Source: a virus. From it: a stretch of 21,069 nucleotides of DNA. Location of the stretch: positions 1-21,069 of the IMG/VR virus record IMGVR_UViG_3300013120_000890, one strand, 5' to 3'. Under the pieces are notes generated by a model. That model saw only the letters and a list, made by a program, of their open reading frames with translations. It searched no databases and had not been told where the DNA came from. A program made the translations under genes and the position numbers. Positions 529 through 20,903 of this stretch are shown here, piece by piece (the stretch's first letter is position 1; every line of letters begins with the position of its first letter).

Positions 529-1092
529 TCAAATCTGACGTTTGTTTGACGTTTTGCCACGGGATGCCTTCTTTCCTCGAGCCTTCGGCTTCTCGGACTT
601 GCGGATGCTCTCCAGCAGAGCGGTTGCCCACTCCGCCGGGGATGTATTCAGGTTGCTGGTGGTCTCGCCCTCGCGCGCGATCTTCGTGGCCTTGAGGTCC
701 TTGAGGTGGCAGCGAACGATGCGGTCGAAGGTCTCGGCCGCCTGGGCGTTGCCGGCATCCATGGCGCGGGAATACTGAACGAGCGCCAGGCCCATGGCCT
801 CGACCGCGATCAGATCCGACGATTCGTTCAGCACGAAGTCGACATGAAGCTGCGCCACGATGTCGTCGAACAGTCGTTGCTCGTCCTCGTCCAGGATGCG
901 CTTGGCGAAGAAGCCATGCTTCAGGGCATTGAGATTGCCCTTCGCCTTCTCAGGTGGGCAACCGCCGTGGTTCTTGGGATTCGCGCCGTGGTAGTAGCAG
1001 ACGCGGTAGCCCGGCGTGACGCGCCGCTTGCAGCGTTCGCCGGTCTGCTTGCTCTTTGCCGTGCAGCGCTTGTCGTCGCTCATTTTGCTCAT
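529..1092 (-). CDS. Cys/His-rich phage-type protein (HGGxSTG-like)
   Basis: The product is 187 aa from the ATG at 1092; the frame extends to an ATG at 1164, but that start lies inside the toxin-antitoxin promoter and has no ribosome-binding site. The N-terminal third has C10, C21, C32 and H35, followed by HGG (42-44) and KHG (58-60). This is the pattern of the small Cys/His 'HGG...KHG' proteins common near terminase and regulatory genes of phages, whose role is not established; metal binding is inferred. The middle is helical and acidic (LDEDEQRLFDDIVAQL), and the last 30 residues are a Lys/Arg/Ser-rich tail that could bind nucleic acid. It is transcribed divergently from the AbrB/Doc pair. 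Confidence 0.75.
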   Translation of the reverse strand: MSKMSDDKRCTAKSKQTGERCKRRVTPGYRVCYYHGANPKNHGGCPPEKAKGNLNALKHGFFAKRILDEDEQRLFDDIVAQLHVDFVLNESSDLIAVEAMGLALVQYSRAMDAGNAQAAETFDRIVRCHLKDLKATKIAREGETTSNLNTSPAEWATALLESIRKSEKPKARGKKASRGKTSNKRQI

Positions 1093-1150
1093 TGTCCAAG
1101 AGCCTTTGTCGTGGCTGGCCGCCGGACGGCGCGGGATGCGGAAAACGCCC

Positions 1151-1191
1151 TTGACGAGCGCCACGGTTGGTGATACACTGGATATACAGTG
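1151..1191 (+). promoter_or_regulatory. Promoter and palindromic operator of the toxin-antitoxin pair
   Basis: A -35 element TTGACG (1151-1156) is followed after 17 bases by a -10 element TACACT (1174-1179). The palindrome CACTG-GATATA-CAGTG (1176-1191) overlaps the -10 and the expected start site, a typical place for antitoxin or toxin-antitoxin repression. A strong ribosome-binding site GGAGG (1203-1207) precedes the ATG at 1215. Confidence 0.65.
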
Positions 1192-1214: not shown

Positions 1215-1442
1215 ATGATCAAGACGCTGACGAGGCACGGGAACAGCCTGGCGCTCGTGATCGACCGGGGCGTTCTGGATTTGCTGAAGATCGATGGCGA
1301 CACCCCTCTCGACATCACCACGGATGGGCAGATCCTGCTCATCTCGCCCGTGCGAGACGCTGAACATCGGGAGAAGTTCGAGACCGCGCTCAAGGCCGCA
1401 AACCGCCGTTACGGCCACGCCCTCAAGCGGCTGGCGGACTGA
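1215..1442 (+). CDS. AbrB/MazE-type antitoxin
   Basis: This 75-aa protein begins IKTLTRHGNSLALVIDRGVLDLL, wording typical of the swapped-hairpin AbrB/MazE fold: a KxGNS-like strand, the hydrophobic LALVI strand, and then LLKIDGDTPLDITTDGQILLISP. The C-terminal 30 residues are charged and helical and would be the toxin-neutralising tail. Ribosome-binding site GGAGG sits 7 bases before the start. Its stop lies 3 bases before the Doc toxin start, so the pair is surely co-translated. By family knowledge the N-terminal dimer binds the promoter palindrome and represses the operon, and the tail inhibits the partner toxin. Confidence 0.85.
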   Translation: MIKTLTRHGNSLALVIDRGVLDLLKIDGDTPLDITTDGQILLISPVRDAEHREKFETALKAANRRYGHALKRLAD

Positions 1443-1445
1443 CGT

Positions 1446-1832
1446 ATGGAACCGATCTTCCTCAGCCTCGGTGAAATTGTCGAAATCCACCGGAACCAGA
1501 TCGAGCTCTACGGGGGCGATCCGGGCATCCGTGATCTTGGATTGCTGCAGTCGGCGGTGGCCATGCCCCAGGCGGCGTTCGGCGGAGACTTTCTGCACGG
1601 CGACCTCTGCGAGATGGCGGCCGCATACCTCTTCCACATCGTGCAGAATCACGCCTTCATCGACGGGAACAAGCGCACCGGCGCGGTCGCGGCAGACGTC
1701 TTCCTGGCGCTGAATGGCCTGGACCTCACCGCCAGCGAGGCCGCGTTCGAGAAACTGGTCAGGCAGGTCGCCGAGGGCAAAGCGGACAAAGCGACCGTCG
1801 CGGAGTTCTTTCGCCGCCACACGCAATCCTGA
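1446..1832 (+). CDS. doc: Doc-family (Fic-fold) toxin
   Basis: This 128-aa protein carries the Fic/Doc active-site loop HAFIDGNKR (H69 to R77), the full HxFx(D/N)GNKR signature, within a helical domain of the length usual for Doc. Doc of phage P1 phosphorylates the threonine of EF-Tu and stops translation; that chemistry is inferred here from the motif and size, while larger Fic enzymes AMPylate. The start GLxDxGLLQSAV-type region (GIRDLGLLQSAVAMP) is also characteristic of Doc. It sits directly behind an AbrB-type antitoxin, a common alternative to Phd. On a phage or plasmid such a pair stabilises carriage or aborts infection by other phages. Confidence 0.92.
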   Translation: MEPIFLSLGEIVEIHRNQIELYGGDPGIRDLGLLQSAVAMPQAAFGGDFLHGDLCEMAAAYLFHIVQNHAFIDGNKRTGAVAADVFLALNGLDLTASEAAFEKLVRQVAEGKADKATVAEFFRRHTQS

Positions 1833-2561: not shown

Positions 2562-3728
2562 ATGGAGTTCATTCCCAGACAACTGGCTTCCGAGTTGAAA
2601 GCGGCCGCCAAGGCCTTCCCCGCGCTGATCCTCACCGGGCCGCGACGGGCCGGCAAAACGACGCTGTTGCGCAAGGTCTTCCCGAAAGCCGACTACTATC
2701 TCCTCGAAGACCCGGACCTGATTGCGCGTTTCCGGGCGGACCCCAGGTCGTTCATTGAGGAGATCAAGCCCCCGGCGCTTCTCGACGAGATTCAGAACGT
2801 GCCCGAGGTATTGAACTACCTGCGGACCCTGATCGACGCCCATCCTGAGCGCAAGGGGCAATGGTTCCTCACCGGCTCGCAAGAGGCCCCCTTGATGCAA
2901 GGAGTGACCGAGTCCATGACGGGACGGGCCGCTGTGTTCCAGTTGCTGCCCATGTCCTGTGAAGAGACCGACAAGGTGTCGCTCCTGAACGGCGGGTTCC
3001 CGGAGGTGCTCGACCATCCAAGGACTCGCCGTACCTGGTTTCGCTCCTACATCCAGACTTATCTCGAAAGGGACGTTCGAGCCGTTACTTCGATCCGCGA
3101 TCTCGCCACCTTCCGGCGATTCCTTGCCCTCCTGGCGAGCCGTTGCGGGCAGTTGCTCAACAAGACGGACATCGCCGCGCCGCTCGGCGTCTCCGTGCCG
3201 ACAATCACCTCCTGGCTCAGCGTTCTGGAGATCACGTCGCAGATCGCGCTTGTGCCGCCTTTCTACGAGAACTTCGGCAAACGTCTGGTCAAGTCGCCCA
3301 AGCTCTACTTCCTCGATTCCGGTCTGGCATGTCATCTCCTCGGCATCGAGTCCGAGCAGGATCTGAATAAGTCCCCGTTCCTGGGACCGATCTTCGAGGG
3401 ATTTGTGGCGGCCGAGATTCTCAAGCGGCAGGTCAACACGGGGCACAGCAAGTCGCTCTACTACTTCCGGGATCACCAGGGGCTGGAGGTCGACTTCCTG
3501 CTGGACTTGAGCGGCCGGCGGCTGGCGCTGATCGAAGCGAAGGCCACGCGGACGCCGGTGCCACGCGCGGCCGAGTCGCTCTTGCGACTGACGAGGGCGA
3601 TCAAGGACTACGATGTCCGCCGATTCGTCGTCCATCGCCCGTCGGGCGGATCGCGTCGTCTGACCGCGTTGAGACCGGGCGTCAAGGCCCTTCCGGTGGA
3701 CCGATTGGCTAACATCTGGCAGGCGTGA
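2562..3728 (+). CDS. AAA_14 / DUF4143 ATPase
   Basis: This 388-aa protein has an N-terminal AAA_14 ATPase domain with Walker A GPRRAGKTT (26-34, K32) and Walker B ALLDEIQN (D74, E75). It then has the DUF4143 region, including the helical YIQTYLERDVR segment and a winged-helix-like part (NKTDIAAPLGVSVPTITSWLSVLE). Near the C-terminus D311 and E325-A-K327 form the PD-(D/E)XK-like core VDFLL...IEAK usual in this family. Length is typical. The biochemical role is not established, though such proteins are very common in accessory DNA. The start has no ribosome-binding site and the promoter ends 7 bases upstream, so leaderless translation is likely. Confidence 0.88.
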   Translation: MEFIPRQLASELKAAAKAFPALILTGPRRAGKTTLLRKVFPKADYYLLEDPDLIARFRADPRSFIEEIKPPALLDEIQNVPEVLNYLRTLIDAHPERKGQWFLTGSQEAPLMQGVTESMTGRAAVFQLLPMSCEETDKVSLLNGGFPEVLDHPRTRRTWFRSYIQTYLERDVRAVTSIRDLATFRRFLALLASRCGQLLNKTDIAAPLGVSVPTITSWLSVLEITSQIALVPPFYENFGKRLVKSPKLYFLDSGLACHLLGIESEQDLNKSPFLGPIFEGFVAAEILKRQVNTGHSKSLYYFRDHQGLEVDFLLDLSGRRLALIEAKATRTPVPRAAESLLRLTRAIKDYDVRRFVVHRPSGGSRRLTALRPGVKALPVDRLANIWQA

Positions 3729-4089: not shown

Positions 4090-6450
4090 CTATCGTCGCT
4101 CCAGGTAGTAGGCCGAATGCGTCCCGCTTCCATGCCGCCGGATCACCGCTTCACCCACGGGCGTGTCCACTCGACGCCGCACGAGAACTCCGAAGGCGAC
4201 GCGGCGACCGCGTTCGCTTCTGCGATTGAGGGCCTGCTGGAAGCACCCGCAGTCCTCGGCGATCTCCATGAGCTCAGCCACGGTCATCAGGTTCTTGTCG
4301 TGGCGATCCCACCACGCCGCCACGAACGTCTCCCATTCCTGTCCGATTGGATCAGCCGCCTGACGCCACTCTTCTTCGTTCGTGCGCCAGCGGTTGAAGC
4401 AGTTCGTGTGGAGGATGCCGCCGATGGTCTCCGACCAGGTCTCGAAACCGCCGAAGCGGTTGGCGTGAGGCTTGTGGCCTTGATCGAGCCAGTTCTCGAT
4501 CATGCCCAGGAGCACGGAGAGGATGCGTCGCCGGCTGTGCTTGACGTGGGCGCGCAAGTCGGGATGGAGGAAGTTCTTCCGTGCCTCGGGATGCGGCGTG
4601 CGCGGCTGCAGCAGGATCGGCACCGTGCGCTTGGCGATCTCGGCGCTGCACTCGGTGTTGTTGCCGGAACCCACGACGGTTAGCGTGTTCGGCAGGCTGA
4701 CGATGCGCGATGCGCCGAGGATGCGGCCTTGGTATGTCGTCGCGGTCAGGATCGACGCCAGCGCGCCGCTCTCGACGGTCGGCGGCAGGTTGTCCAGATG
4801 GACGATGGTTTCGCCCTGGAGCAGCAGGGCAAGCAGCCGCTTGTCGCGCTCCTCGTCGCGGTCGGTGATCTGCAGCGCCGGGGTCTCGCGTCCGAGGATG
4901 ACGCCGCCGAAGACCTCCTCGGCGAGCTTCGTCTTGCCGGTGCGTTCGAGGGGAGAGAGCAAGAGATGCAGAGGGCGGTTGCCGTCGATGGCGGGCGCGA
5001 CGAGAGGCGTGAGCATCAGACCGATGAAGTTCTGGCGGCTGGCCTCGTCCTTGAACGGGAAGTCGACCAGAAGCTCGTGTATCTCCTCCTGAATCTGCTG
5101 GATGTCACACTCCGGCTCGATGCCCTTCAGTTCCGGCGGTTCGTCGTAGTAGATGCCGTTGCGCCAGCCGGGACGGACGCGCACGAAGCCCGGGCCGTAA
5201 ACCGGATAGTGAACGAGTAGATCGAGATCGCGCACGCGCGCGTCCTGCTGGGCCCCGGCGATGACGAGTCCGGCATAGTCCTTGTTGCACGGCTTGTAGA
5301 CGAGGACCGCGCCTTCGCCGTTCTTGCGTTGATACCACGCGCCAAGCTTCACGTGCTCGTCCACGATCAGACGTGTGCGGTCGGCGATCAGTTCGCTCCA
5401 GCGACGCTTCCCGCGCGGCCCCAATAGTTCGCCGGGGATGTAGCCCTTGCGGTAGACGAGGTCCACGGGCAGAGCCTGGACGACCTGGTCGGCGAAGTCC
5501 TTGCTCGATTGCTCGGTGTAGCGTTCGAGGTCGTCCTTGTGCGGGCCGGGGATGAGGATGACGTCCGGCATGCATGTATCGCCGTCGGATGATCGCTTGC
5601 CGGACGCTTGTCGCGGCTGAATTGTCCGCGGTTCCTTCGTGCCCGCCTCGATGCCGCTCTGGATTGTGGCAGCGGCTTCGTGCTCACCGAGGCCGATCAC
5701 CGCAGAGGTCGAGGAAAGCTCCGACTCCACGCGTTGCCGTTCGAGATAGCCGCCGGCGACCAGTTGCCCCAGGTTGAAGGCGGCGCGATTAAGCGTGTCG
5801 TTGCGCGTGCCTTCGGTCGCGCTACGCAGGTTGCGCAGCTCCAGCTTCAGCGCCGTCTCCGCATAGCGCGAGGTCTCCGCGCTGGCCGGGCGTCTGGGGG
5901 GAGGATGCGTGGGCCTCGATGCGTTCCGGTTCGCTTGGTCGAGGAGCCACGCCGGCAAGGGAGACATAGCGTCCCCATTGCGCTTGGCGTAGGGTTCAGC
6001 GACGCCCTTGAGCATCGACGGCGGCGCGACGACGTATCCGCCCTCGGCCTTCAGGTCGATACCCGGGCGCAGGTTGTTGCGGCCTTTCAGTTCGCCGTTC
6101 GAGTGGGCGAAGTAGAAGTGCCGTCCGTCGTTCGGCGTGCGGACCTCGCAGGTCGGCGGCAGCCTCCCGAACTCCTTTTGCAGCTCCTGCAGCGACGCCT
6201 CGCCGTCGCCTTTTCCGTGGCGATCCACATCGAGAACGACAACGCCCGACGCCGTGCCCGTTCTCAGGCCGACGTTGGCGGCGGGATGTTCCGCCCACCA
6301 TCCACGAATGCGCTCGGGGTCGGCGGTCGCGTCCTTGAAGCCGTGCGGCGTCAGCGGCGTCTTGCCGCCCGGCTTCAGCGGAAAGACGGCCCACCCTCGC
6401 GCGGCGTATTCGAGCGCCGCATCAAGGAAACCGTTGGTATGCTCTGGCAT
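4090..6450 (-). CDS. Prim-Pol primase fused to a C-terminal ATPase/helicase
   Basis: This 786-aa protein is the likely replicative primase-helicase. Residues about 10-170 are a bifunctional Prim-Pol (AEP) domain: metal-binding D74 and D76 in VVLDVDRHG, the nucleotide-binding H111 in DGRHFYF, and D132 in GIDLKAEGGYVVAPPS. A linker of about 130 residues rich in Pro, Arg and Ser follows. The C-terminal half is an ATPase with an unusual Walker A, SPLERTGKTKL (G505-K506-T507, first Gly replaced), and a Walker B-like IVHLDN (D553). Downstream, VVGSGNN and R-rich segments fit a helicase core of the phage primase-helicase type. ATG 6450 has GGAG about 8 bases upstream. It is the last gene of the leftward operon and ends beside the repeat-rich candidate origin. 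Confidence 0.88.
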   Translation of the reverse strand: MPEHTNGFLDAALEYAARGWAVFPLKPGGKTPLTPHGFKDATADPERIRGWWAEHPAANVGLRTGTASGVVVLDVDRHGKGDGEASLQELQKEFGRLPPTCEVRTPNDGRHFYFAHSNGELKGRNNLRPGIDLKAEGGYVVAPPSMLKGVAEPYAKRNGDAMSPLPAWLLDQANRNASRPTHPPPRRPASAETSRYAETALKLELRNLRSATEGTRNDTLNRAAFNLGQLVAGGYLERQRVESELSSTSAVIGLGEHEAAATIQSGIEAGTKEPRTIQPRQASGKRSSDGDTCMPDVILIPGPHKDDLERYTEQSSKDFADQVVQALPVDLVYRKGYIPGELLGPRGKRRWSELIADRTRLIVDEHVKLGAWYQRKNGEGAVLVYKPCNKDYAGLVIAGAQQDARVRDLDLLVHYPVYGPGFVRVRPGWRNGIYYDEPPELKGIEPECDIQQIQEEIHELLVDFPFKDEASRQNFIGLMLTPLVAPAIDGNRPLHLLLSPLERTGKTKLAEEVFGGVILGRETPALQITDRDEERDKRLLALLLQGETIVHLDNLPPTVESGALASILTATTYQGRILGASRIVSLPNTLTVVGSGNNTECSAEIAKRTVPILLQPRTPHPEARKNFLHPDLRAHVKHSRRRILSVLLGMIENWLDQGHKPHANRFGGFETWSETIGGILHTNCFNRWRTNEEEWRQAADPIGQEWETFVAAWWDRHDKNLMTVAELMEIAEDCGCFQQALNRRSERGRRVAFGVLVRRRVDTPVGEAVIRRHGSGTHSAYYLERR

Positions 6451-9099: not shown

Positions 9100-9933
9100 C
9101 TATTTCTCCTCGGTTTTCTGTTCGCTGAAAAGGGTGTCCCAGACGGCGGTGTCGTTCGCGTACACGGGAATGGGGTCGGACAGGCGGCGGCTCTTGGCCA
9201 TGCAGTGCGGCATCTCGACGGGCCACAATGTGCGCGTGCCGCAGCCGTGGCCCTTGCCGTCCTTCACGTCCACGTCGTAGCCCAGGAAGAAGACGTGGTC
9301 GACCCACTCGCGCACGCGCAGGCGGATGGATGCCTTGCCGCTGGACGGCGACTGGAGGCGCGGTTCATATCGCGTCCAGTCTTCGCCCTGGGGATTGGGC
9401 ACGTTCGTGGTGCAGTCGTGGCAGATGAGGATCACGTTGCGGCCCACACGGACGTGGCGGTCGAGGTCGCCCAGCAACGTCAGGAAGGTCTCGTAGGTGT
9501 GCTGATAGCCTTTGCCGTAGCCGTAATCCTCGATGCGCTGAATGCGATTGCCCTTTTCGTGGGGCACGTTGGCGATGGTCCAGGCGACGGCCAGTTCCTC
9601 GGCGCGCGTGGCGCTGTCGATGACGACAGTCTTGACGTCGTCCCAGCCGTCGCCGTTCAGCACGCCGCGCAGGTCGTCCCATGTTTCGACACCGGCGATG
9701 CGCTGTGTGTGTTCGGGTAGGAGCACGGCGAGCGAGTCGTCCAGATCGAAGCTGGCCACGGGCCCCGGCGCGATATCGGCCAGGCTGGTCTTGCCCACAC
9801 CCCCTGGCCCGTAGAGGACGATGCGGTGTCCGGTGTGCGGCGCAGGCTTCTCGAAGCTCAATGTTCGGCGTTGCTGCATGGCCGATTTCGGCGCGTCGCG
9901 CCGTGCGCGAGGCCGTGTCAGTGTTCCTGGCAT
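9100..9933 (-). CDS. Sak4-like RecA-fold ATPase (AAA_24)
   Basis: The product is 277 aa from ATG 9933. AAGGAG (9943-9948) is 9 bases upstream of this ATG, whereas the ATG at 9942 directly abuts it, so the shorter start is preferred. Walker A GPGGVGKTS lies at 42-50 (K48) and Walker B VVIDSA around D106. A ...LICHD strand follows. This is the arrangement of phage AAA_24/Sak4 ATPases, single-domain RecA relatives that help single-strand annealing. It is placed directly after a PD-(D/E)XK nuclease and before an SSB-like protein, as in many phage recombination modules. The nuclease stop lies one base before this start, and the ribosome-binding site is inside the upstream gene. Confidence 0.82.
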   Translation of the reverse strand: MPGTLTRPRARRDAPKSAMQQRRTLSFEKPAPHTGHRIVLYGPGGVGKTSLADIAPGPVASFDLDDSLAVLLPEHTQRIAGVETWDDLRGVLNGDGWDDVKTVVIDSATRAEELAVAWTIANVPHEKGNRIQRIEDYGYGKGYQHTYETFLTLLGDLDRHVRVGRNVILICHDCTTNVPNPQGEDWTRYEPRLQSPSSGKASIRLRVREWVDHVFFLGYDVDVKDGKGHGCGTRTLWPVEMPHCMAKSRRLSDPIPVYANDTAVWDTLFSEQKTEEK

Positions 9934-11561: not shown

Positions 11562-13463
11562 ATGAGCGAAGACACCGGAGTTCAACTAGATGGCTGCCAC
11601 AAGCTGAAATCCATCGAGGTCATTGGCGGGTTCCTCGACGGCAACCGTTTCGACTTGTCCGACGGCCTGAACTGTCTCATAGGCGGCCGCGGGACGGGCA
11701 AGACGACTGTCCTCGAGTTCATCCGGTATGCGCTCGATGCGTTGCCGGAAGGCGAAGACAACCATCCGCTCTGCCGCGAGATCGAGAGCCTCGTCCGCAG
11801 CAACCTAGGCGGCGGCCGCATTCAGTTAACGATTGAGACCAAGGACGGTCTGAGCTACATCGTGAATCGGACTTGGGGCGAGGAGTCCCAGGTGTTCACG
11901 CCGGACGGCAGGCCAACCGGAATATCCCTGGGGCATGGCGCGTTCTTCTCGGCGGACATCTACAGCCAAAACCAGATCGAGAGCATCTCGACCAACCCTC
12001 GTTTCCAGCTCGTCTTGATTGACAGCTTCATCGAGCAGGAGATCGCGGAAATCCAGGCTGAACTGAATCGTCTATATCGCGCGCTGGGCGGCAACGCGGC
12101 CGAGGTACTTCGTGTGGAGGGAGAAACCGCCGAACTCGTCGAGGGACTCAGCGAGCTTCCCACCGTGGAGGAGAATCTGAAGGCCTTCGCCGAGGCCCAG
12201 GGCGATGACGCAGAGAAGATTAACGAGCAACATGACTTGAAGGCGCGTCGTGACCGCGAGAAGCGGGCGCTCCACGGGCTCAACGAGGCGTTCGGGCAGT
12301 TTCGGCAGAACCTGCAGTCCTGCATTGGCCATCTCGATGACCGGGCAGGCACGGTGCTGCCATCTGACCTCGTGACCGGCCCCAATGCAGCGGTACTCGC
12401 TGACGTCCAACGCGCCGCGCAGGAGTGTGCGCGGGAAGTCGACGGCAGTATCCAGGCCGCCATCGAACGGATCGAGCAGGCCATGGCGAGCATGGGGGCG
12501 TTCGGCGAGACGCTCTCCGCCGCGCACCAGGAACAGGAGCAGGCATTCCGCCAAGTCATCGAAGCGCACAAGCAGGCGCAAGCCCACGTGCAGGAGCGGT
12601 CTCGACTGGAGCGGCTTCGGAACGATCTTCAGGCGAAGAAGCGGTCCCTCGACGAGAAGCGTTCCCAACTACAGCAGCTTCAGGAGAAACGCACGGGCCT
12701 CATGCAGCGCGTCTCCGAACTGCGCGATGGAAGATTCCAGCGCCGGCAGCAGGTGGCCGCCGAATTGACTTCCCGCCTGTCTCCGTCGATCCGCGTGACC
12801 GTGGAGCAGTTCGGCAACAGTCAGCAATACGAGGGCCTGCTCGCCGACGGTCTCAAGAAATCGGGCGTGCAGTCCAATCGCACCGCGGCCAAGATCGTCA
12901 GCGGCATGTCGCCGGTCGACTTCGCTCGGGCGGTGCGCCAGAACGACCACAATGCGCTGGTGGACTTGGCGGGGCTGACGGCAGACCAGGCGGGCAAGGT
13001 CATCATAGCGTTGGCGGGAACCCAGCGGATCTTCGATATCGAGGCCGTCGAACTCCTGGACCTGCCCCGGATCGAACTCCTCGATGGCGACGCGTACAAG
13101 GACTCCACGATGCTATCGACGGGGCAGAAATGCACCACGATTCTTCCGATCCTGCTCCTCGAGAGCGAAAGCCCGCTGCTGATCGACCAGCCCGAGGACA
13201 ATCTCGATAATCGCTTCATCTACGAGACTGTGGTCAAGAGCGTGTCGGAGATGAAAGCGAAACGCCAGTTGCTGTTCGTGACGCACAACCCCAACATTCC
13301 CGTGCTCGGTGACGCCGAGAAGGTCTTCGTGCTGACGTCTTCGGGCAAGAAGGCGTCTGTCGAATGCGAGGGAACGGTAGATGAGTGCAGGACCGACGTG
13401 GAGACCCTCCTCGAGGGCGGCAAAGAGGCTTTTGAACTGCGAATGAGGAAATACGGCCACTGA
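11562..13463 (+). CDS. SMC/TrlF-like ABC ATPase, first gene of a three-gene signalling operon
   Basis: This 633-aa protein has a split ABC-type ATPase head around a coiled coil. Walker A GGRGTGKTT (41-49, K47) is near the N-terminus. Residues about 160-410 are rich in Glu, Gln, Arg and Leu heptads and form the coiled coil. The C-terminal head has signature LSTGQ (518-522), Walker B PLLIDQPEDN (D542, E545) and the switch His in FVTHNPN (H575). The wording of the C-terminal head is that of TrlF/RecF-like 'PEDNLDN' ATPases. There is no CxxC zinc hook, so it is not Rad50 or RloC, and no PHP or nuclease domain is apparent. The stop overlaps the kinase start (TGATG). Role inferred: ATP-dependent sensor or effector working with the kinase and regulator that follow. 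Confidence 0.88.
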   Translation: MSEDTGVQLDGCHKLKSIEVIGGFLDGNRFDLSDGLNCLIGGRGTGKTTVLEFIRYALDALPEGEDNHPLCREIESLVRSNLGGGRIQLTIETKDGLSYIVNRTWGEESQVFTPDGRPTGISLGHGAFFSADIYSQNQIESISTNPRFQLVLIDSFIEQEIAEIQAELNRLYRALGGNAAEVLRVEGETAELVEGLSELPTVEENLKAFAEAQGDDAEKINEQHDLKARRDREKRALHGLNEAFGQFRQNLQSCIGHLDDRAGTVLPSDLVTGPNAAVLADVQRAAQECAREVDGSIQAAIERIEQAMASMGAFGETLSAAHQEQEQAFRQVIEAHKQAQAHVQERSRLERLRNDLQAKKRSLDEKRSQLQQLQEKRTGLMQRVSELRDGRFQRRQQVAAELTSRLSPSIRVTVEQFGNSQQYEGLLADGLKKSGVQSNRTAAKIVSGMSPVDFARAVRQNDHNALVDLAGLTADQAGKVIIALAGTQRIFDIEAVELLDLPRIELLDGDAYKDSTMLSTGQKCTTILPILLLESESPLLIDQPEDNLDNRFIYETVVKSVSEMKAKRQLLFVTHNPNIPVLGDAEKVFVLTSSGKKASVECEGTVDECRTDVETLLEGGKEAFELRMRKYGH

Positions 13464-14599
13464 TGGTGATCGACGGCAGTCAAGATAGTCTTGAGCGTGC
13501 GCTTCAGCGGTTCGAGAAAGGCGTCTCGACGCCTTGGCCGGATCGCGCCAAGCTGGCCTCGCAGCTTGGGGACAGCCTGCGCTCCATCAAGACCCCGGAA
13601 TCCCTTGTCCTGGCCGTTCGACTTCTGAAGCATCTCGCGGAGGACGAGAAGTGGGAGGTGCGCAAGGCGACGGCCGAGTCGCTCATGCACCTCCGGTCGG
13701 ACGAGTTCGACGTGCTTATCTCCCGGCTCGCGAACGACTCGACCGCCTGGGTCCGCAAGGCGGCCGAACGCACGCTCGCCCGGCGCAAGCGACTGGAGCA
13801 GGTCGAAACCAAGAAACGGCAACGGATTGAGGGCGTCTACGACGACTATGATTGGTTCGTGGAGAAGTACGGGCGCACTGCCGCGGACCGGGCGCTTCGC
13901 ATTGGCGAGCGGTACTTCGAAATTCTGGCGAGCGCCGCGACGCACGAGATTCGCGGCGTCCTGACATCGCTCATTGGAGTGCTGGAACAACTCAGTAAGG
14001 ACGGTGTGTCTGCCGCTGATCGTGCTGCCGGCTTGGAGAAGGCCCAGGAACGAGCGGCGTTCTTGGACCGCATCCTGGACGACATGAAGGGATACGCCCA
14101 GGAGTTGTCGTGCGACTTCCAGCGCGAGAACCTTCGGGACATCGTCGATGCCGCCATTGAGCTTGTTGAGGACAAGATTCGCTCGACCGGCAGAAGCCTG
14201 GCTGACGTTGATGTGCTGAATGAGGTCGAGAGCTTCGTGTTCCTGGAAGCATCGCGCTATCAGATGGTCCAGGTGTTCGAGAACGTGATCCGCAATGCAT
14301 TCGAGTCGACAGATGAGAATGGGCGCATCCGGATCACCGGCGATCTTGGGGATGAGAAGCGCATCGTCGTCAGCATCTCAGACAACGGCGTCGGCATGTC
14401 GCCCGAGGAAATCAAAGACGCTTTCATCCCGTTCAAGACAAGCAAGAAAAACCAGGGCGGCACCGGCTTCGGCCTCGCCATTGCCAAGAAGATTGTCCAG
14501 GCCCATGGTGGAACCATTGTCATGGAAAGCATCGAAGACCAGGGCACGACTGTCGTGATAACGTTGCCACTCACTCAAGAGGATCGTTTGGACGCATGA
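13463..14599 (+). CDS. Cytosolic histidine kinase with N-terminal HEAT-like repeats
   Basis: This 378-aa protein has an N-terminal helical region with HEAT-like units (about 48-105: LLKHLAEDEKWEVRKATAES, then LISRLANDSTAWVRKAAERT). The kinase core follows: phospho-acceptor H161 in ASAATHEIRGVL, N box N274/N278 in ENVIRNAF, G1 DNGVGM (307-312) and G2 GGTGFG (332-337). There is no signal peptide or membrane segment, so it senses something inside the cell, with the HEAT scaffold the likely input or docking surface. It overlaps the ATPase gene upstream and the response regulator downstream (ATGA), so all three are made together. HEAT repeats in front of a kinase core are uncommon. Confidence 0.88.
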   Translation: MVIDGSQDSLERALQRFEKGVSTPWPDRAKLASQLGDSLRSIKTPESLVLAVRLLKHLAEDEKWEVRKATAESLMHLRSDEFDVLISRLANDSTAWVRKAAERTLARRKRLEQVETKKRQRIEGVYDDYDWFVEKYGRTAADRALRIGERYFEILASAATHEIRGVLTSLIGVLEQLSKDGVSAADRAAGLEKAQERAAFLDRILDDMKGYAQELSCDFQRENLRDIVDAAIELVEDKIRSTGRSLADVDVLNEVESFVFLEASRYQMVQVFENVIRNAFESTDENGRIRITGDLGDEKRIVVSISDNGVGMSPEEIKDAFIPFKTSKKNQGGTGFGLAIAKKIVQAHGGTIVMESIEDQGTTVVITLPLTQEDRLDA

Positions 14600-15459
14600 C
14601 CGAGCACACACACCGCGCATTGATCGTTGAGGACGACGCCAAGATCGTCGACGTCGTCACCGATCACATCGAGTCGCTGGGTCACGGCTGCGACTGCGCC
14701 GCCAATCAGGCCGAAGCCCGGGAACTGCTCGCTGCAAGGAAGTACTGCTACGTGTTGCTCGACTTGGAGATCCCCGTCAAGCCGAAGCGCATGGCGCGCA
14801 AGGAATATGGCATCAACCTCCTTGAGGAGATCCGCCGCCGGGCTGAGACATGCCGGACGATTGTCATCATCATGACGAGCCACGGCACGGACGGCCCATA
14901 CTTGGCGGTTGAGATGATGAAGAAGGGGGCGGACGACTACATCTGCAAACCGTTCAATTCTGGCCCGGGCGGCCGCGCGCCGACGGACGTGATCAAACAG
15001 GCGCTCCAGAAGGGCTGTAAGCATTCCCCCGGGCACTGCCCGGTGCTTGCCGGCGGGGAAAGCGCACCTCAAGCATCGCAAACATCCGACCCCGCAGAAC
15101 CGACACCGTTCGAGGGAGGCGAACTCGTCTTCCATGATGACCGGGTTGAGCTTCTTGGCCATACGATTCTGACGGACAAGGGAAATGACTTCAGCCGTCG
15201 CCTGCTTGACCTGCTTGCGCAAAGGAAGCCGAGCGGCGAATACAAGGCATACAGTGGGAAGAAACTTGCCCAACATCTCGATTCCCTGGGGCAGAAGGGC
15301 CAGAACGATGTGGCTGGTTACGTGAAGTATCTGCGCGACCAGATCACAAGCGTGCTCGGCAAGGCTGGTGTCAGCTGCGAACGCCACGACGTGATCGAGA
15401 GCGGCGGTAGGGGCTACCGTCTGAACCCATGGATCGACGTCGAAGGCATCGACGGCTGA
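14596..15459 (+). CDS. Response regulator (REC + winged helix)
   Basis: The product is 287 aa. The receiver domain has the acidic triad E12/D13/D14, phospho-acceptor D56 (VLLDLEIP), T94 and K118 (ICKPF). After D56 there is an insertion of roughly ten residues (PVKPKRMARKEYG) before the helix LLEEIRRR, and another short insert after KPF. A linker of about 35 residues rich in Ser, Ala and Pro leads to a C-terminal domain (about 170-280) that ends in ESGGRGYRLNP, the wing of OmpR-type winged helices. It is the partner of the HEAT kinase and should bind DNA when phosphorylated. The target is unknown; the palindromes just downstream are candidates. It starts inside the kinase gene (ATGA). Confidence 0.85.
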   Translation: MTEHTHRALIVEDDAKIVDVVTDHIESLGHGCDCAANQAEARELLAARKYCYVLLDLEIPVKPKRMARKEYGINLLEEIRRRAETCRTIVIIMTSHGTDGPYLAVEMMKKGADDYICKPFNSGPGGRAPTDVIKQALQKGCKHSPGHCPVLAGGESAPQASQTSDPAEPTPFEGGELVFHDDRVELLGHTILTDKGNDFSRRLLDLLAQRKPSGEYKAYSGKKLAQHLDSLGQKGQNDVAGYVKYLRDQITSVLGKAGVSCERHDVIESGGRGYRLNPWIDVEGIDG

Positions 15460-16751: not shown

Positions 16752-16961
16752 ATGTCAAACCCACTCGGCCCGAACGAGCTGACCGCCTCGGAGCGCATTT
16801 CCGAGGTGGCTGATATCCTCGCTGATGGGCTTCTCCGGGCCAAGCTGCGCGATATGCGCAAGGCTATATCCCGCAGGAGGATACGAGATAATACCCTTGA
16901 TAATCCCGGCGGATTACGCCCTCATGGGCTCGAACCACAAGCTGATGGAGAGAGCCCATGA
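16752..16961 (+). CDS. Small conserved protein of the DUF2924/recombinase cassette
   Basis: The product is 69 aa from ATG 16752, with AGAAGGA upstream. The N-terminal half (PNELTASERISEVADILADG, LLRAK) is the short helical protein commonly found just before DUF2924 and serine recombinase genes. The C-terminal half is basic and then Gly/Pro-rich and looks poorly conserved, possibly altered. Its stop overlaps the DUF2924 start (ATGA). The role is unknown; conserved position suggests it helps or regulates the recombinase. Confidence 0.6.
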   Translation: MSNPLGPNELTASERISEVADILADGLLRAKLRDMRKAISRRRIRDNTLDNPGGLRPHGLEPQADGESP

Positions 16962-17419
16962 AACAATCGGTGCTGAAGCAGGTCGCGGAGCTTCCGAATC
17001 TGGACTCGGGCCAGCTCAAGGAGAGATGGCGCACGTTGTATGGGTCGGAGCCGCCGGCCTACAACAAGTCGTACCTCGTCAAGCGCCTGGCCTATCGCAT
17101 CCAGGAACTGGCCTACGGCGGGCTGTCCCAAGCCGCGCAGGCGCAACTACGCGACGCCTTGGATGGGGACGATGCGGACGGCATGACGAGTCGAATGCAC
17201 CGGCGAAGAAGGAAGGACGGCATGCCAGTAACCGGAACGCGCCTTGTGCGGGAGTGGCAGGGGAACCGCTATGAGGTCACCGTCGTGCATGGCGGGTTCG
17301 AGTTCGAGGGCCGGAAGTACCGATCTCTGACCGCCATCACCAAGGCCATCACCGGGACGCACTGGAACGGTCCGGGCTTCTTCGGCCTGCGCAAGCCCAT
17401 CGGGAAGGCGGCATCATGA
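16958..17419 (+). CDS. DUF2924 protein
   Basis: This 153-aa protein matches DUF2924: N-terminal QVAELPNLDSGQLKERWRTL with YGSEPPAYNKSYLVKRLAYR, the family's signature that places a conserved Tyr/Asn/Lys before a basic helix. The C-terminal part is a small beta domain (GTRLVREWQGNRYEVTVV, then FEFEGRKYRSLTAITKAITG, THWNGPGFFGL), also typical. GGAGAG precedes the ATG. The family is almost always upstream of a large serine recombinase, as here, with a four-base overlap. A DNA-binding accessory role in recombination is inferred, not proven. Confidence 0.88.
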   Translation: MKQSVLKQVAELPNLDSGQLKERWRTLYGSEPPAYNKSYLVKRLAYRIQELAYGGLSQAAQAQLRDALDGDDADGMTSRMHRRRRKDGMPVTGTRLVREWQGNRYEVTVVHGGFEFEGRKYRSLTAITKAITGTHWNGPGFFGLRKPIGKAAS

Positions 17420-19011
17420 GCGGGACACGGAACACCCAAGCCCCGCCGGCGCGCATCCGCTGCGCGATCTACACGCGCAAGTCCACCGATGAGGGGCTGG
17501 AGCAGGAGTTCAACTCGCTGGATGCCCAGCGCGAGGCCGCCGAAGCGTTCATCGCCAGCCAGCGCCAAGAGGGGTGGATCGCGCTGCCAACGCGCTACGA
17601 CGACGGCGGGTACTCCGGCGGCACGATGGAGCGTCCGGCGCTCGACCATCTGATGCGCGACGTCCAGGCAGGCCGCGTCGACTGCGTGGTGGTCTACAAG
17701 GTGGACCGGCTGTCGCGCTCGCTCATGGACTTCACCAAGATCGTGGAGATCTTCGACCGCTGCGACGTCTCGTTCGTATCGGTGACGCAGCAGTTCAACA
17801 CCACGAGTTCGATGGGCCGGCTCACGCTGAACATCCTGCTGTCCTTCGCCCAGTTCGAGCGCGAGATCATCGGCGAGCGCATCCGCGACAAGATCGCGGC
17901 GGCCAAGCGCAAGGGAAAGCACACCGGCGGCATGCCCATCCTCGGCTACGACATCGACCACGCGAATCGCCGCCTCGTCATCAATCCAGATGAGGCCGAA
18001 CTCGTCCAGCGCATCTTCAAGCGGTTCATCCGGCTCGGATCACCGCTCAAAGTCGCTCAGGAACTGAACGAGGAAGGTTTGACCACAAAACGCTGGGTCA
18101 GAGCGAACGGAAAGGTGCGCGAGGGCCGCCCATGGAACAAGGCGCACATCTCGCGTTTGCTGAACAACCGGAAGTACGTCGGCGAAGTCACGCACAAAGG
18201 CGCGGTGTACCCCGGCGAGCACGAAGCCATTATCTCGCGCAAGCTCTGGGACGACGCCCACAAGATTCTCGCCACGAACCGCCATCAGCGGGCGGGGCGC
18301 ACACGCGCCAAGACCCCGGCGCTGCTCAAGGGCATCATCCGGTGCGGACACTGCGGCAACTCCATGGGCATCACCTTCACCCGGAGGAAAGGCAAGCTCT
18401 ACCGCTACTACCTCTGTGTTCACGCCTCGAAGAACGGCTATGCCTCGTGTCCGGTGAAGAGCGTTGCCGCCGGCGAGATGGAGGAAGCGGTCATGGGGCA
18501 ACTGCGCGCGGTCTTCCGCAGCCCCGACCTCATCGCCAAGACATATCGTGCGGCCAGGTCGAAGGAGGCGGCGGAACTTGACGGACTGCGTGCAGAGAAG
18601 GGGGGCATCGAGGACCGGCTCCGCGTCCTGAAGGAGATGGCGGCGGGCTTGAAGCGAGGCGGCAGGAACCGCATCCCCAACGGTAACGCGGCAACCGCTG
18701 AACTCGCCCGGATCAGGGACGAGATCGCCGAGACCGAGAGCGGCCTTTCGATGGCGGCGCGCGACCTGCAATTGCGCGAAGCCGCCGAGGTGACCGAGCG
18801 CGACGTGATCGACGCGCTCCAGTCCATCGAACCCATATGGAACGAGCTTTTCCCCGCCGAACAGGCGCGCATCGTCCAGTTGCTGGTAGACAGCGTCGTG
18901 GTGAACCCGAACGGCCTGGAGGTCTGTGTGCGTTCGAACGGGCTGCGGTCGCTCATCACCGAACTGAACGGCGCGGTGTCCGACGCGCAGGAACGGAGCA
19001 GCGAATCATGA
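17416..19011 (+). CDS. Large serine recombinase (integrase)
   Basis: The 531-aa protein has the resolvase/invertase catalytic domain first: nucleophile S23 in IYTRKSTDEG, the conserved arginines in YKVDRLSRSLMDF, and EREIIGERIRDKIAAAKRKG at the start of the long E helix. The recombinase domain follows (LGYDIDHANRRLVINPDEAE, NRKYVGEVTHKG). The zinc ribbon is at about 311-352 (RCGHCGNSMG...CPVKS), then a coiled-coil stretch. Length and order are usual for phage and island integrases. These enzymes join attP and attB without replication, normally with a directionality factor. The gene overlaps its neighbours on both sides by four bases. Confidence 0.93.
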   Translation: MSGTRNTQAPPARIRCAIYTRKSTDEGLEQEFNSLDAQREAAEAFIASQRQEGWIALPTRYDDGGYSGGTMERPALDHLMRDVQAGRVDCVVVYKVDRLSRSLMDFTKIVEIFDRCDVSFVSVTQQFNTTSSMGRLTLNILLSFAQFEREIIGERIRDKIAAAKRKGKHTGGMPILGYDIDHANRRLVINPDEAELVQRIFKRFIRLGSPLKVAQELNEEGLTTKRWVRANGKVREGRPWNKAHISRLLNNRKYVGEVTHKGAVYPGEHEAIISRKLWDDAHKILATNRHQRAGRTRAKTPALLKGIIRCGHCGNSMGITFTRRKGKLYRYYLCVHASKNGYASCPVKSVAAGEMEEAVMGQLRAVFRSPDLIAKTYRAARSKEAAELDGLRAEKGGIEDRLRVLKEMAAGLKRGGRNRIPNGNAATAELARIRDEIAETESGLSMAARDLQLREAAEVTERDVIDALQSIEPIWNELFPAEQARIVQLLVDSVVVNPNGLEVCVRSNGLRSLITELNGAVSDAQERSSES

Positions 19012-19424
19012 TCGACAAGCCGACGCTGGTTGCTGATGGCGACAACATTCTGATCCGGATCCCCATGCGCTTCAAGAAGCGCGGCGGCCGCAAGGAGATC
19101 ATCGCGCCCGAAGGCCTGGACAGCGCATTCCCTGTCGCGGCTCCGGCCCAGGAGCCGATAGTGACCGCACTCGCCCGCGCGCATCGTTGGCAGCGGATGC
19201 TCGACGCTGGCGAGGTCACTTCTATCGCGGAACTGGCAGAACGCTTGGACGTGGACAGCTCTTACGTAGGCCGCATCCTGCGACTCACCCTTCTGGCCCC
19301 CGATATCATCGAAGCCATCCTCGCCGGTCGCGAGCCAAGCGGCCTCTCCCTCGCCAAGCTCACACAGACCCTCCCAATGCTTTGGAACGAGCAGCGCCAG
19401 CTATTCGGCTTTGAGCAGCGGTAG
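19008..19424 (+). CDS. KorB/ParB-like helix-turn-helix protein behind the recombinase
   Basis: The product is 138 aa from ATG 19008, overlapping the recombinase stop (ATGA). The N-terminus has a beta segment and a basic patch (IRIPMRFKKRGGRKEI). The region from about 52 to 115 (ALARAHRWQRMLDAGEVTSI, AELAERLDVDSSYVGRILRL, APDIIEAILAG) is the KorB/ParB-type helix-turn-helix usual for the last gene of DUF2924-recombinase cassettes. It may control direction of recombination or repress the cassette; neither is shown. It ends the rightward operon, and about 1.1 kb without a clear gene follows. Confidence 0.75.
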   Translation: MIDKPTLVADGDNILIRIPMRFKKRGGRKEIIAPEGLDSAFPVAAPAQEPIVTALARAHRWQRMLDAGEVTSIAELAERLDVDSSYVGRILRLTLLAPDIIEAILAGREPSGLSLAKLTQTLPMLWNEQRQLFGFEQR

Positions 19425-19620: not shown

Positions 19621-19658
19621 GAATCTTCCGGACGAGGTGAGCAAAGTCCGGAAGATTC
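19621..19658. repeat. Perfect 13-bp inverted repeat with 12-bp centre
   Basis: GAATCTTCCGGAC (19621-19633) and GTCCGGAAGATTC (19646-19658) are exact reverse complements around a 12-base centre. It lies about 200 bases behind the recombinase cassette. No T-run follows on either strand, so a protein-binding or recombination site is more likely than a terminator. Confidence 0.7.
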
Positions 19659-19790
19659 AGAGAAACAGAGAGAGAAGGGGCGATTTGGGGGCGAAATGGG
19701 GGTGATGTGGGGTGGAGCGCGTCCCAAGGGCGGCGAGCGCCCCGGATGTGCCGCGAGTCGTAAGTCCTTCGCCGGCAAACAGAACGCAAC

Positions 19791-19846
19791 AGGGCTCGCC
19801 GAAGTCTATCGGCGAGCCCTGAATGCCCGGAGCAATTTCGCTCCGG
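19791..19846 (-). terminator. Two hairpins behind the tmRNA fragment
   Basis: A 12-bp perfect stem AGGGCTCGCCGA / TCGGCGAGCCCT (19791-19802, 19809-19820) and a 7-bp stem CCGGAGC / GCTCCGG (19827-19833, 19840-19846) lie just downstream of the tmRNA 3' end on the minus strand. GTTGCGTTCTGTTT follows the first stem on that strand. This is the normal place for the tmRNA transcription terminator. Confidence 0.55.
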
Positions 19847-19849
19847 TGA

Positions 19850-20092
19850 ATCTGGTGTAGGCGGCGGGAATCGAACCCGCGTCCTGCAATCGGTAAGGCT
19901 CTGAAGCGCAAAGACTTACAAGAACAGCCTTCGCCGTGCGGACTATATGCGGAACAGAACCGCAATAACCCCCTTGCCGCATTGGCCCGCAAGTGGGACC
20001 GTTTCAGCCCCGAAGTCCAAGCCGCGCTTCAGGCACTCGCAGCGGTACTGCAGCACCAAGAGGGCAATGGGAAGCAGACCAATGTGGGCTGA
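19850..20092 (+). pseudogene. Open frame resembling the tail of a tRNA/tmRNA-adjacent integrase
   Basis: This frame is open for 80 codons without an ATG and reads through the tmRNA fragment (CRRRESNPRPAIGKALKRKD) into a protein-like end: NPLAALARKWDRFSPEVQAA, LQALAAVLQ, stop at 20090. Reading through a tmRNA or tRNA end into a helical Leu/Ala-rich tail is known for tyrosine integrases whose gene ends at the attachment site. The rest of such an integrase is absent, so this is treated as a relic. Chance is the alternative. Confidence 0.35.
19853..19930 (-). ncRNA. ssrA: 3' fragment of a tmRNA gene (probable attachment-site relic)
   Basis: On the minus strand the end reads GGACGCGGGTTCGATTCCCG followed by CCGCCTACACCA. 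That is a T-arm (GCGGG-TTCGATT-CCCGC), a 7-base acceptor half (19863-19857), the discriminator and a CCA. It differs from the common bacterial tmRNA 3' end in one acceptor base. The matching 5' acceptor strand (GTAGGCG-like) was not found within 450 bases, so this is a 3' piece, not a full gene; its upstream limit is approximate. Such fragments mark phage or island attachment in ssrA. A fragment of a tRNA gene is the alternative. Confidence 0.5.
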
Positions 20093-20249
20093 CGAATGGA
20101 GGTACTGTCCACTCGCAGGTTTGAGTACACCCGAATCCCGGAGATCAGAGGCCCAGGGGAGTAGGGATCGGTGCCTGACCAGCGGATTGAAAGTCCGTTG
20201 TCGCCCCGACGTAACGTCTGGCCAGGCCATATCGTCCGACAACACTGAT

Positions 20250-20396
20250 TCTGTCTTGGGCTCCTGCTTGGCCACGATTAGAGAGACGTATCCTCGCCTC
20301 GCTGCTGTCGTGGCCGCCTGGCCCGACCTGCCCGAGCCGATCCGCGCGGCAATCCTGGCGATGATCCGTTCCACGACTGGGGAGCATGGACAATGA
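20250..20396 (+). pseudogene. Second integrase-tail-like fragment
   Basis: The last 48 codons of a longer open frame read ATIRETYPRLAAVVAAWPDL then PEPIRAAILAMI, with stop at 20394-20396. The W-x-x-L-P-x-x-I-R-A-A-I pattern is a recurrent short C-terminal tail in planctomycete-type elements and resembles the 'WDRFSPEVQAAL' of the fragment at 19850-20092. The upstream part of the frame looks non-coding, so only the tail is called. Confidence 0.35.
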
Positions 20397-20479
20397 TTCC
20401 ACATGCTACCCCGCTGACAGAATTGACAGAACTGACAGAACCAACGCGCAAAGGCAGGCCATCTGCTAGCGGCCTGTGA
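20393..20479 (+). CDS. Possible 28-aa microprotein with LTE repeats
   Basis: An ATG overlapping the preceding stop (ATGA) opens a 28-codon frame whose centre reads LTELTELTEPTRKGRP, the translation of three tandem 9-base repeats. The overlap is suggestive, but no ribosome-binding site or family is seen. The DNA repeat may matter rather than the peptide. Confidence 0.22.
   Translation: MIPHATPLTELTELTEPTRKGRPSASGL
20414..20440 (+). repeat. Three tandem 9-bp repeats (YTGACAGAA)
   Basis: CTGACAGAA (20414-20422), TTGACAGAA (20423-20431) and CTGACAGAA (20432-20440) follow each other without gaps, 74 bases before the small terminase gene. Terminase recognition sites often lie in or beside that gene, so a packaging-site role is possible. 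Confidence 0.7.
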
Positions 20480-20513
20480 ATGAGTGAGCCACAAGTCATC
20501 TGGAGGAAGTGCA

Positions 20514-20903
20514 ATGACACCGAAACAACAGCGGTTCGTCAGAGAATACCTGACGGATTTCAATGCCACGCGGGCCGCAATTCGAGCCGGATATTCCCCG
20601 AAAGGGGCGTCCGTTCAAGGGGCGAGATTGTTAGCAAATGCTAAGGTGCAGGCCGAGGTCGAGCAGCTCGCGAAGTGCAAAGACGACGAACTTGGCCTGA
20701 GCAACGACCGGATACTGCACAAACTCGCCCAGATTGCCTTCTCGGATGACGAGGAGACAAAGGACAACCTTCGGGCGCTGGACATCATGTGCAAGACGCG
20801 GGGCATGTACCTCCGCAAGCCCGACCTCGACCAGGAGGGCATCGTTATCAACCTGAACATGGGCGAACCTCCAGATGCCGATGAAGAGGCCCAAGACAAC
20901 TGA
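20514..20903 (+). CDS. terS: Small terminase subunit (Terminase_2 family)
   Basis: The product is 129 aa from ATG 20514, chosen over 20484 because GGAGGA lies 7 bases upstream. The N-terminal 55 residues (LTPKQQRFV-type start, EYLTDFNATRAAIRAGYSPK, SVQGARLLANAKVQAEVEQL) are the DNA-binding domain of the Terminase_2 small subunit: a helix-turn-helix followed by the invariant 'GarLlaNakV' stretch. The rest is a helical oligomerisation segment and an acidic tail (EPPDADEEAQDN). It recognises phage DNA for packaging and passes it to the large subunit, which should lie beyond the right edge. This is the only packaging gene visible. Confidence 0.9.
   Translation: MTPKQQRFVREYLTDFNATRAAIRAGYSPKGASVQGARLLANAKVQAEVEQLAKCKDDELGLSNDRILHKLAQIAFSDDEETKDNLRALDIMCKTRGMYLRKPDLDQEGIVINLNMGEPPDADEEAQDN

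Follow-up and report, generated by a model that had tools for sequence, protein, structure and literature searches.

A tmRNA gene 3' end beside a phage serine integrase as a probable attachment half-site

Integrases at tRNA and tmRNA genes

The genes for tRNAs and for tmRNA (ssrA) are regarded as the territory of tyrosine integrases, and the accessible part of the 2014 Islander paper states that only tyrosine integrases, not serine integrases, were known to target them (PMC4383910). The islands described in that part carry the 3' end of the gene they enter, which restores the target, as we propose here for an integrase of the other class. As far as the accessible text goes, 16 tyrosine systems of Mycobacterium abscessus use tRNA/tmRNA sites and none of the six serine systems is named there as doing so (PMC10654092), and a 2025 TIGER/Islander note, in its available sections, sorts islands by integrase type and by site, the two not being crossed (PMC12424338). 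The nearest precedent for a serine enzyme at such a gene, judged from the available portion of its description, is the group of DsiB islands in Dehalococcoides ssrA, which have a CcrB-like serine recombinase (DsiB) and whose insertion was placed in the T loop (PMC3146451).

The stretch analysed here (the window), 21,069 bases long, is a virus record from IMG/VR that is linear-ended and comes without a host genome. It shares with the DsiB islands, as the accessible text presents them, a serine recombinase adjoining an ssrA 3' piece and a ParB-domain gene in the module, and the tandem repeats of the ssrA 3' end reported for those islands are listed as a further likeness (PMC3146451). The same text gives the DsiB islands a small partner (DsiA), RecF-like, Mom-like and polymerase-domain genes and a 20-bp repeat, whereas the window has an integrase of PHROG 95, a DUF2924 gene before it, a gene with a weak HTH match after it and a phage setting, no DsiA-like partner was found beside the integrase among the scanned translations, and the relatives of this integrase lie at tRNA genes as well as at ssrA. 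Targeting of tRNA genes by this family was not found in the titles and abstract openings of the open-access literature searched, nor in the accessible portions of PMC12884075, PMC10654092, PMC11476347, PMC12424338 and PMC7426155.

The domain architecture of the window integrase is that of the phiC31/Bxb1-type enzymes, which are known for short shared cores and are not known to restore a gene; here, in contrast, 31-49 bp are common to element and target gene. The enzyme also matches the catalytic pattern of Bxb1, R-x-S and DRLxR, as given in the accessible part of PMC12884075. Among its best matches in the phage collection are the integrases of the Acidithiobacillus phage AcaML1 (55% identity over 71% of the protein) and of the Wolbachia phage WO (42% identity over 67% of the protein).

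A tmRNA 3' end next to the integrase module

The minus strand of the window carries, at 19853..19884, the 3' end of a tmRNA (ssrA) gene, made up of GGAC, the T arm, the 3' strand of the acceptor stem and CCA. Compared with tmRNA and tRNA genes taken from the collected integrase loci, these 32 nt (GGACGCGGGTTCGATTCCCGCCGCCTACACCA) agree in up to 31 of 32 bases with 37 distinct tmRNA genes (median 28) and in at most 24 of 32 with 52 distinct tRNAs (median 20), which confirms the identity. The tmRNA covariance model, a check put forward in the initial annotation, gave an RF00023 match at 19935-19853 (minus strand; 34.3 bits, E 1.4e-10) below the gathering score of 47, and this score alone is not decisive because tRNA genes score alike, e.g., a tRNA-Ala (G002:C140) at 33.3 bits. 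That annotation had placed a tmRNA 3' fragment at 19853-19930: the fragment itself holds, the supported extent is the shorter 19853-19884, and upstream of GGAC there is no consistent likeness to tmRNA although the Rfam match reaches 19935. The finding that would have spoken against a mere fragment, a full tmRNA or tRNA gene at this place, did not appear, as ARAGORN called no complete gene of either kind in the window; a full or permuted tmRNA was likewise rejected, the permuted model reaching only 22.9 bits.

Among genomes with related integrases, all 37 have an RF00023 match (31 of them above the cut-off), and the window piece could be aligned, over 19-37 nt at the T arm and acceptor, to 22 of the 28 tmRNAs with an ARAGORN tmRNA call among the 30 ssrA loci of these genomes. 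In a sample of 392 Planctomycetota genomes, 150 had a match at E 1e-6; among the matches listed none starts before base 48 of 98, GGAC being base 62, and for a host ssrA corresponding to the window the sample gave only partial matches. The exact 31-mer of the piece was absent from 291 genomes of one phylum. Annotated phages and plasmids contain similar att DNA only as T-arm matches of 32-40 nt, in 10, 3 and 5 records, and the sole RNA annotation under these matches is the tmRNA of Streptomyces phage Annadreamy. A pair of viral contigs, L023 and L024, share this T arm and acceptor but were rejected as cases of a bare 3' piece, for they carry a permuted tmRNA gene (473-807 and 9101-9435, respectively; tag ATEEAFALAA).

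To the left of the fragment lies a compact module on the plus strand. It begins with a DUF2924 gene (16958..17419; PF11149, E 2e-49) directly upstream of the integrase, a large serine integrase of 531 aa (17416..19011) with Resolvase, Recombinase and Zn-ribbon domains (PF00239, PF07508 and PF13408) that matches the PHROG 95 integrase at E 3e-126, so that the serine recombinase noticed beside the fragment is a genuine one. Its S23, D97, R98, L99 and R101 are invariant in 12 of 12 aligned integrases, the window included, and no second serine recombinase was found among the scanned window translations (Pfam, PHROG). The following small gene (19008..19424) matches PHROG 14161 'recombinase' and has a weak ParB-type HTH match below the Pfam cut-off. 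By tblastn, 176 of 181 loci have a DUF2924 match just upstream of the integrase; the small gene is matched in 128 of 181, either after the integrase or fused to it. The arrangement DUF2924, integrase, small HTH-like gene is found in records of planctomycetes, proteobacteria, verrucomicrobia and viruses.

On the other side of the fragment, a stretch with no clear gene (19885..20483, the proposed P side of the att site) extends to a terminase small subunit gene (20484..20903, plus strand; PF03592, E 5e-27; PHROG 51, E 5e-29). The fragment is thus flanked by phage genes, integrase left and terminase right (Pfam, PHROG), as one would expect either of the attP in a free phage or where two elements join. 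Farther left, the window encodes a primase-polymerase, a helicase, an AAA protein and a PD-(D/E)XK nuclease (Pfam). A related replication block (56-80% protein identity) occurs in contig L321, whose serine integrase is another member of the family (48% identity) and has the opposite relative orientation; a T-arm search of this contig found none. Within the P side, 19890-20396 (plus strand) holds a frame of 80 codons that runs antisense to the T arm, lacks a start codon and has a protein-like tail, as well as a second tail (AAWPDLPEPIRAAILAMIRS). Similar tails occur at 5035-5127 of L008 and at 637-572 of L101, in the latter next to a tRNA-Asn-like fragment; a comparison with annotated phages gave no match. 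At 20160-20230 there is, by eye, an anticodon-arm-like hairpin (GCGGATTGAAAGTCCGT) with no tRNA call.

Immediately 3' of the tmRNA end, and on the same strand, is a hairpin at 19827..19846 (one mismatch), followed by a second at 19790..19821 (13 paired bases per arm). Both inverted repeats have at most one mismatch per arm and the 201-nt hairpin region folds with z = -4.4, and the hairpins of the initial annotation are therefore real; their role as terminators is more conjectural. The second hairpin, whose T run is weak, may be the terminator of a restored ssrA, and hairpins carried in this way would let such a gene end its transcript. Nearer the integrase module, a 38-bp inverted repeat, GAATCTTCCGGAC..GTCCGGAAGATTC, spans 19621..19658, and similar repeats lie at the same place in L192 and L027, all of them ssrA-linked. 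The pattern shows no general enrichment around integrases: 14 loci were found in 487 kb of neighbouring sequence and 31 hits in 805 kb of distant sequence. Dyad scans for a crossover point gave no clear centre.

Target genes of related integrases

We surveyed two sets of loci with related integrases, the first comprising 21 viral loci, the best 80 of more than 580 bacterial loci and the window (102 loci), and the second the best 80 of more than 580 viral loci; a few contigs repeat across the sets (L242/L008, L261/L078). In the first set, T arms at 0.5-2 kb from the integrase faced it in 28 cases and pointed away in 2, none lay at 0-0.5 kb, and farther off the counts were 5 facing and 1 away (2-4 kb) and 9 facing and 3 away (4-6.5 kb). 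In the second set, 16 T arms faced the integrase and 2 pointed away at 0.5-2 kb; at 2-3.1 kb the numbers were 5 and 4. For 44 of 47 facing, the binomial p is about 1e-10, a value that ignores kinship among the loci and counts the window itself. Two T arms that look like chance (L194, and L051 at 573 bp) were kept in the counts. Intact tRNA or tmRNA genes (ARAGORN) within 2 kb and with the 3' end facing the integrase are present in 22 of the 102 loci and in 11 of the 80, whereas only two intact genes within 2 kb face away in the first set, each adjoining or overlapping a facing one. The targets include tRNA-Asn, -Met, -Arg, -Ser, -Glu and -Gln and ssrA; in L093 a tRNA-Ala lies at 2.4 kb. Of the 102 loci, 74 lack a facing T arm at 0.5-2 kb, and some of these end too soon. 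Among the close relatives without a target label, L187, L188, L190, L002 and L026 could not show a site as they stop 24-752 bp past the integrase. In the close relatives L025, L029, L191, L193 and L189, the 1.6-6 kb examined downstream held no T arm.

At six loci (the window, L192, L186, L195, L027 and L063), ssrA lies 0.5-2 kb from the integrase. It is intact, at 0.8-1.0 kb, in L027, L063 and L195, sits at the contig end in L186, and is a bare 3' piece in the window and in L192. More distant facing copies are found in L026 and L040 (4.5 and 4.7 kb), and an ssrA-like end faces the integrase at 2.9 kb in L198/L199; a second match in the L063 genome (L107) proved to be tRNA-Ala. L192 is a second viral contig with only the GAC...CCA end of ssrA, its T arm at 868 bp from the integrase (856 in the window). 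Its piece starts at GAC right after unrelated sequence, ends at CCA and differs from that of the window at 3 positions over the shared 31 nt, and CCA is followed, in the same order as in the window, by a repeat that resembles a terminator and has a T run, by an inverted repeat (CTCCGGAC..GTCCGGA) and by the small gene.

The integrases themselves group in part by target. In full-length blast searches with the window integrase, those of L186 and L195 are the best two matches and those of L192 and L027 are in the top eleven; among relatives whose target is known, the top four by score all lie at ssrA and the fifth at tRNA-Ser. On a 57-row integrase tree the target labels need 19 changes compared with 35.8 when shuffled (0 of 200 shuffles as low), whereas ssrA taken by itself needs 6, which does not improve on shuffled labels. 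Of the starred sets that include the window, the smallest has 25 rows: 12 with no target, 6 with ssrA, 4 with tRNA-Ser, 1 with tRNA-Ala, and others.

One relative, L082, allows the carried piece to be compared with its intact counterpart. There, a tRNA-Asn piece (4851-4899) running from the anticodon stem to CCA is identical in 49 of 49 nt to the intact tRNA-Asn of the same assembly, with no likeness to the intact gene on either side of it. By eye, the other flank consists of host genes (GcvH/GcvT-like) and not of a tRNA 5' half; L041 is alike, with a tRNA-Asn fragment near 4830 beside the module and host-like genes, by eye, on the other side, and for this reason a simple attP does not explain these two cases. 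The point where the shared piece starts varies by target: in the T stem for L060, at GAC in the two ssrA carriers and in the anticodon arm in the tRNA-Asn carriers L082, L217 and L041. Among 14 islands searched for a distal repeat (9-75 kb examined, several cut by contig ends), a clear one was found only in L060 (tRNA-Met), where 68 nt at 97% identity, starting in the 3' strand of the T stem, recur 46 kb away. The likeness continues, by eye, for about 140 nt, which suggests insertion next to an earlier copy; since a tyrosine integrase lies on the host side of the tRNA, this island is not clean proof. A distal 17-nt match in L094 was judged to be chance.

Origin of the fragment

We consider it probable (roughly 0.7) that the fragment serves the neighbouring serine integrase as the P' half of its attachment site; this enzyme would target ssrA and restore it. 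The initial annotation had recognised attachment-site sequence oddly placed beside a serine integrase, and rightly so. Its suggested cause, a leftover from an earlier integrase, is less probable than an att site of the serine integrase itself, since the relatives at tRNA/tmRNA 3' ends show the same orientation and similar distances. The phage, or an equivalent junction of two elements, would carry GGAC, the T arm, the acceptor strand and CCA of ssrA together with the downstream hairpins. Its integrase would cut here and recombine the phage site with the 3' portion of ssrA in the host, and insertion would join the host 5' part of ssrA to the phage-borne 3' end beside the integrase. The gene would then stay whole and might still yield a working tmRNA, while the host's own 3' end would be pushed to the far side of the prophage.

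A difficulty of this proposal is direction. Known serine integrases act one-way, and a shared crossover combined with a full half-site would make attL equal to attB, which would explain tandem arrays, leaves direction unexplained and is hard to square with such enzymes. The candidates that we propose for setting the direction are the DUF2924 protein and the small HTH-like protein, both conserved. More tentatively, and with less than even odds, a widespread family of serine integrases may have evolved tRNA/tmRNA targeting with restoration independently of the tyrosine integrases, attP and attB sharing a whole half-site; insertion would then regenerate attB, and directionality would have to come from the other half-site or from accessory proteins. 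If this is true, two unrelated enzyme classes would have converged on the same way of restoring a gene, it must be asked how such an enzyme avoids running backwards with a half-site common to attP and attB, and genome engineering would gain a large number of new integrases whose targets can be predicted.

A junction between two tandem or nested elements at ssrA, the boundary also considered in the initial annotation, the left one with the serine integrase and the right one with the terminase, would have a sequence layout identical to that of attP, and we regard it as improbable while giving it more weight than the other alternatives. Besides the clear terminase gene at 20484, a weak terminase-small-like match at 529-1164 (minus strand; PHROG 9231, E 8e-6) would allow the window to hold two phages, the terminase protein has no tblastn match in the collected integrase loci, and the second copy of the att region in L060, with high similarity by eye over some 140 nt, is what tandem insertion gives. 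However, the terminase-like match is weak, a relative of the protein at 529 is also present in the stretch beside the ssrA of L027, and the two right-side translations scanned include no integrase, a thin test as the record ends 1.2 kb past the fragment.

Still less probable, in our view, is that the fragment is left over from the attP of an earlier tyrosine integrase and has no connection with the present enzyme. It is true that ssrA 3' ends are classic tyrosine sites, that the P-side frames, antisense to the T arm and in the later stretch (19890-20396), resemble read-through tails, and that in L013 a tyrosine integrase adjoins the tRNA-Asn fragment; this locus, so confounded, was set aside as a clean case and retained in the 102-locus counts and the tree. 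Yet the position of the fragment recurs across the serine integrase family, no tyrosine integrase (PF00589, Phage_integrase) was matched among the 13 window translations scanned with Pfam, and in the 45 target-labelled loci a jackhmmer search with two queries only, and hence of limited sensitivity, found such enzymes in just two, L013 and L060, and a further one in the L027 stretch at 18 kb from ssrA. Very unlikely is a chance T-arm-like hairpin, or a tmRNA remnant or small RNA with a role of its own in the phage: phages do carry tmRNA genes, as the permuted ones of L023 and L024 illustrate, but 31 of 32 bases are as in tmRNA, the window has no 5' half, and both position and orientation recur in relatives.

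Several other genes of the window have counterparts near related integrases. Beside the integrase module, 11562-15459 (plus strand) encodes an SMC-like ATPase, a HEAT/histidine kinase and a response regulator; matches near the integrase comprise ATPase, kinase and regulator in L077, ATPase and kinase in L074, and the ATPase in L252. This cassette may be defence or regulatory cargo, its PADLOC matches being partial and weak. A gene pair at 1215-1832 (plus strand), by eye an antitoxin and a Fic/Doc-like toxin, matches in both members genes adjoining the integrase in L228. The protein encoded at 2562-3728 (plus strand) matches the PADLOC candidate defence family PDC-S01 at E 6e-101.
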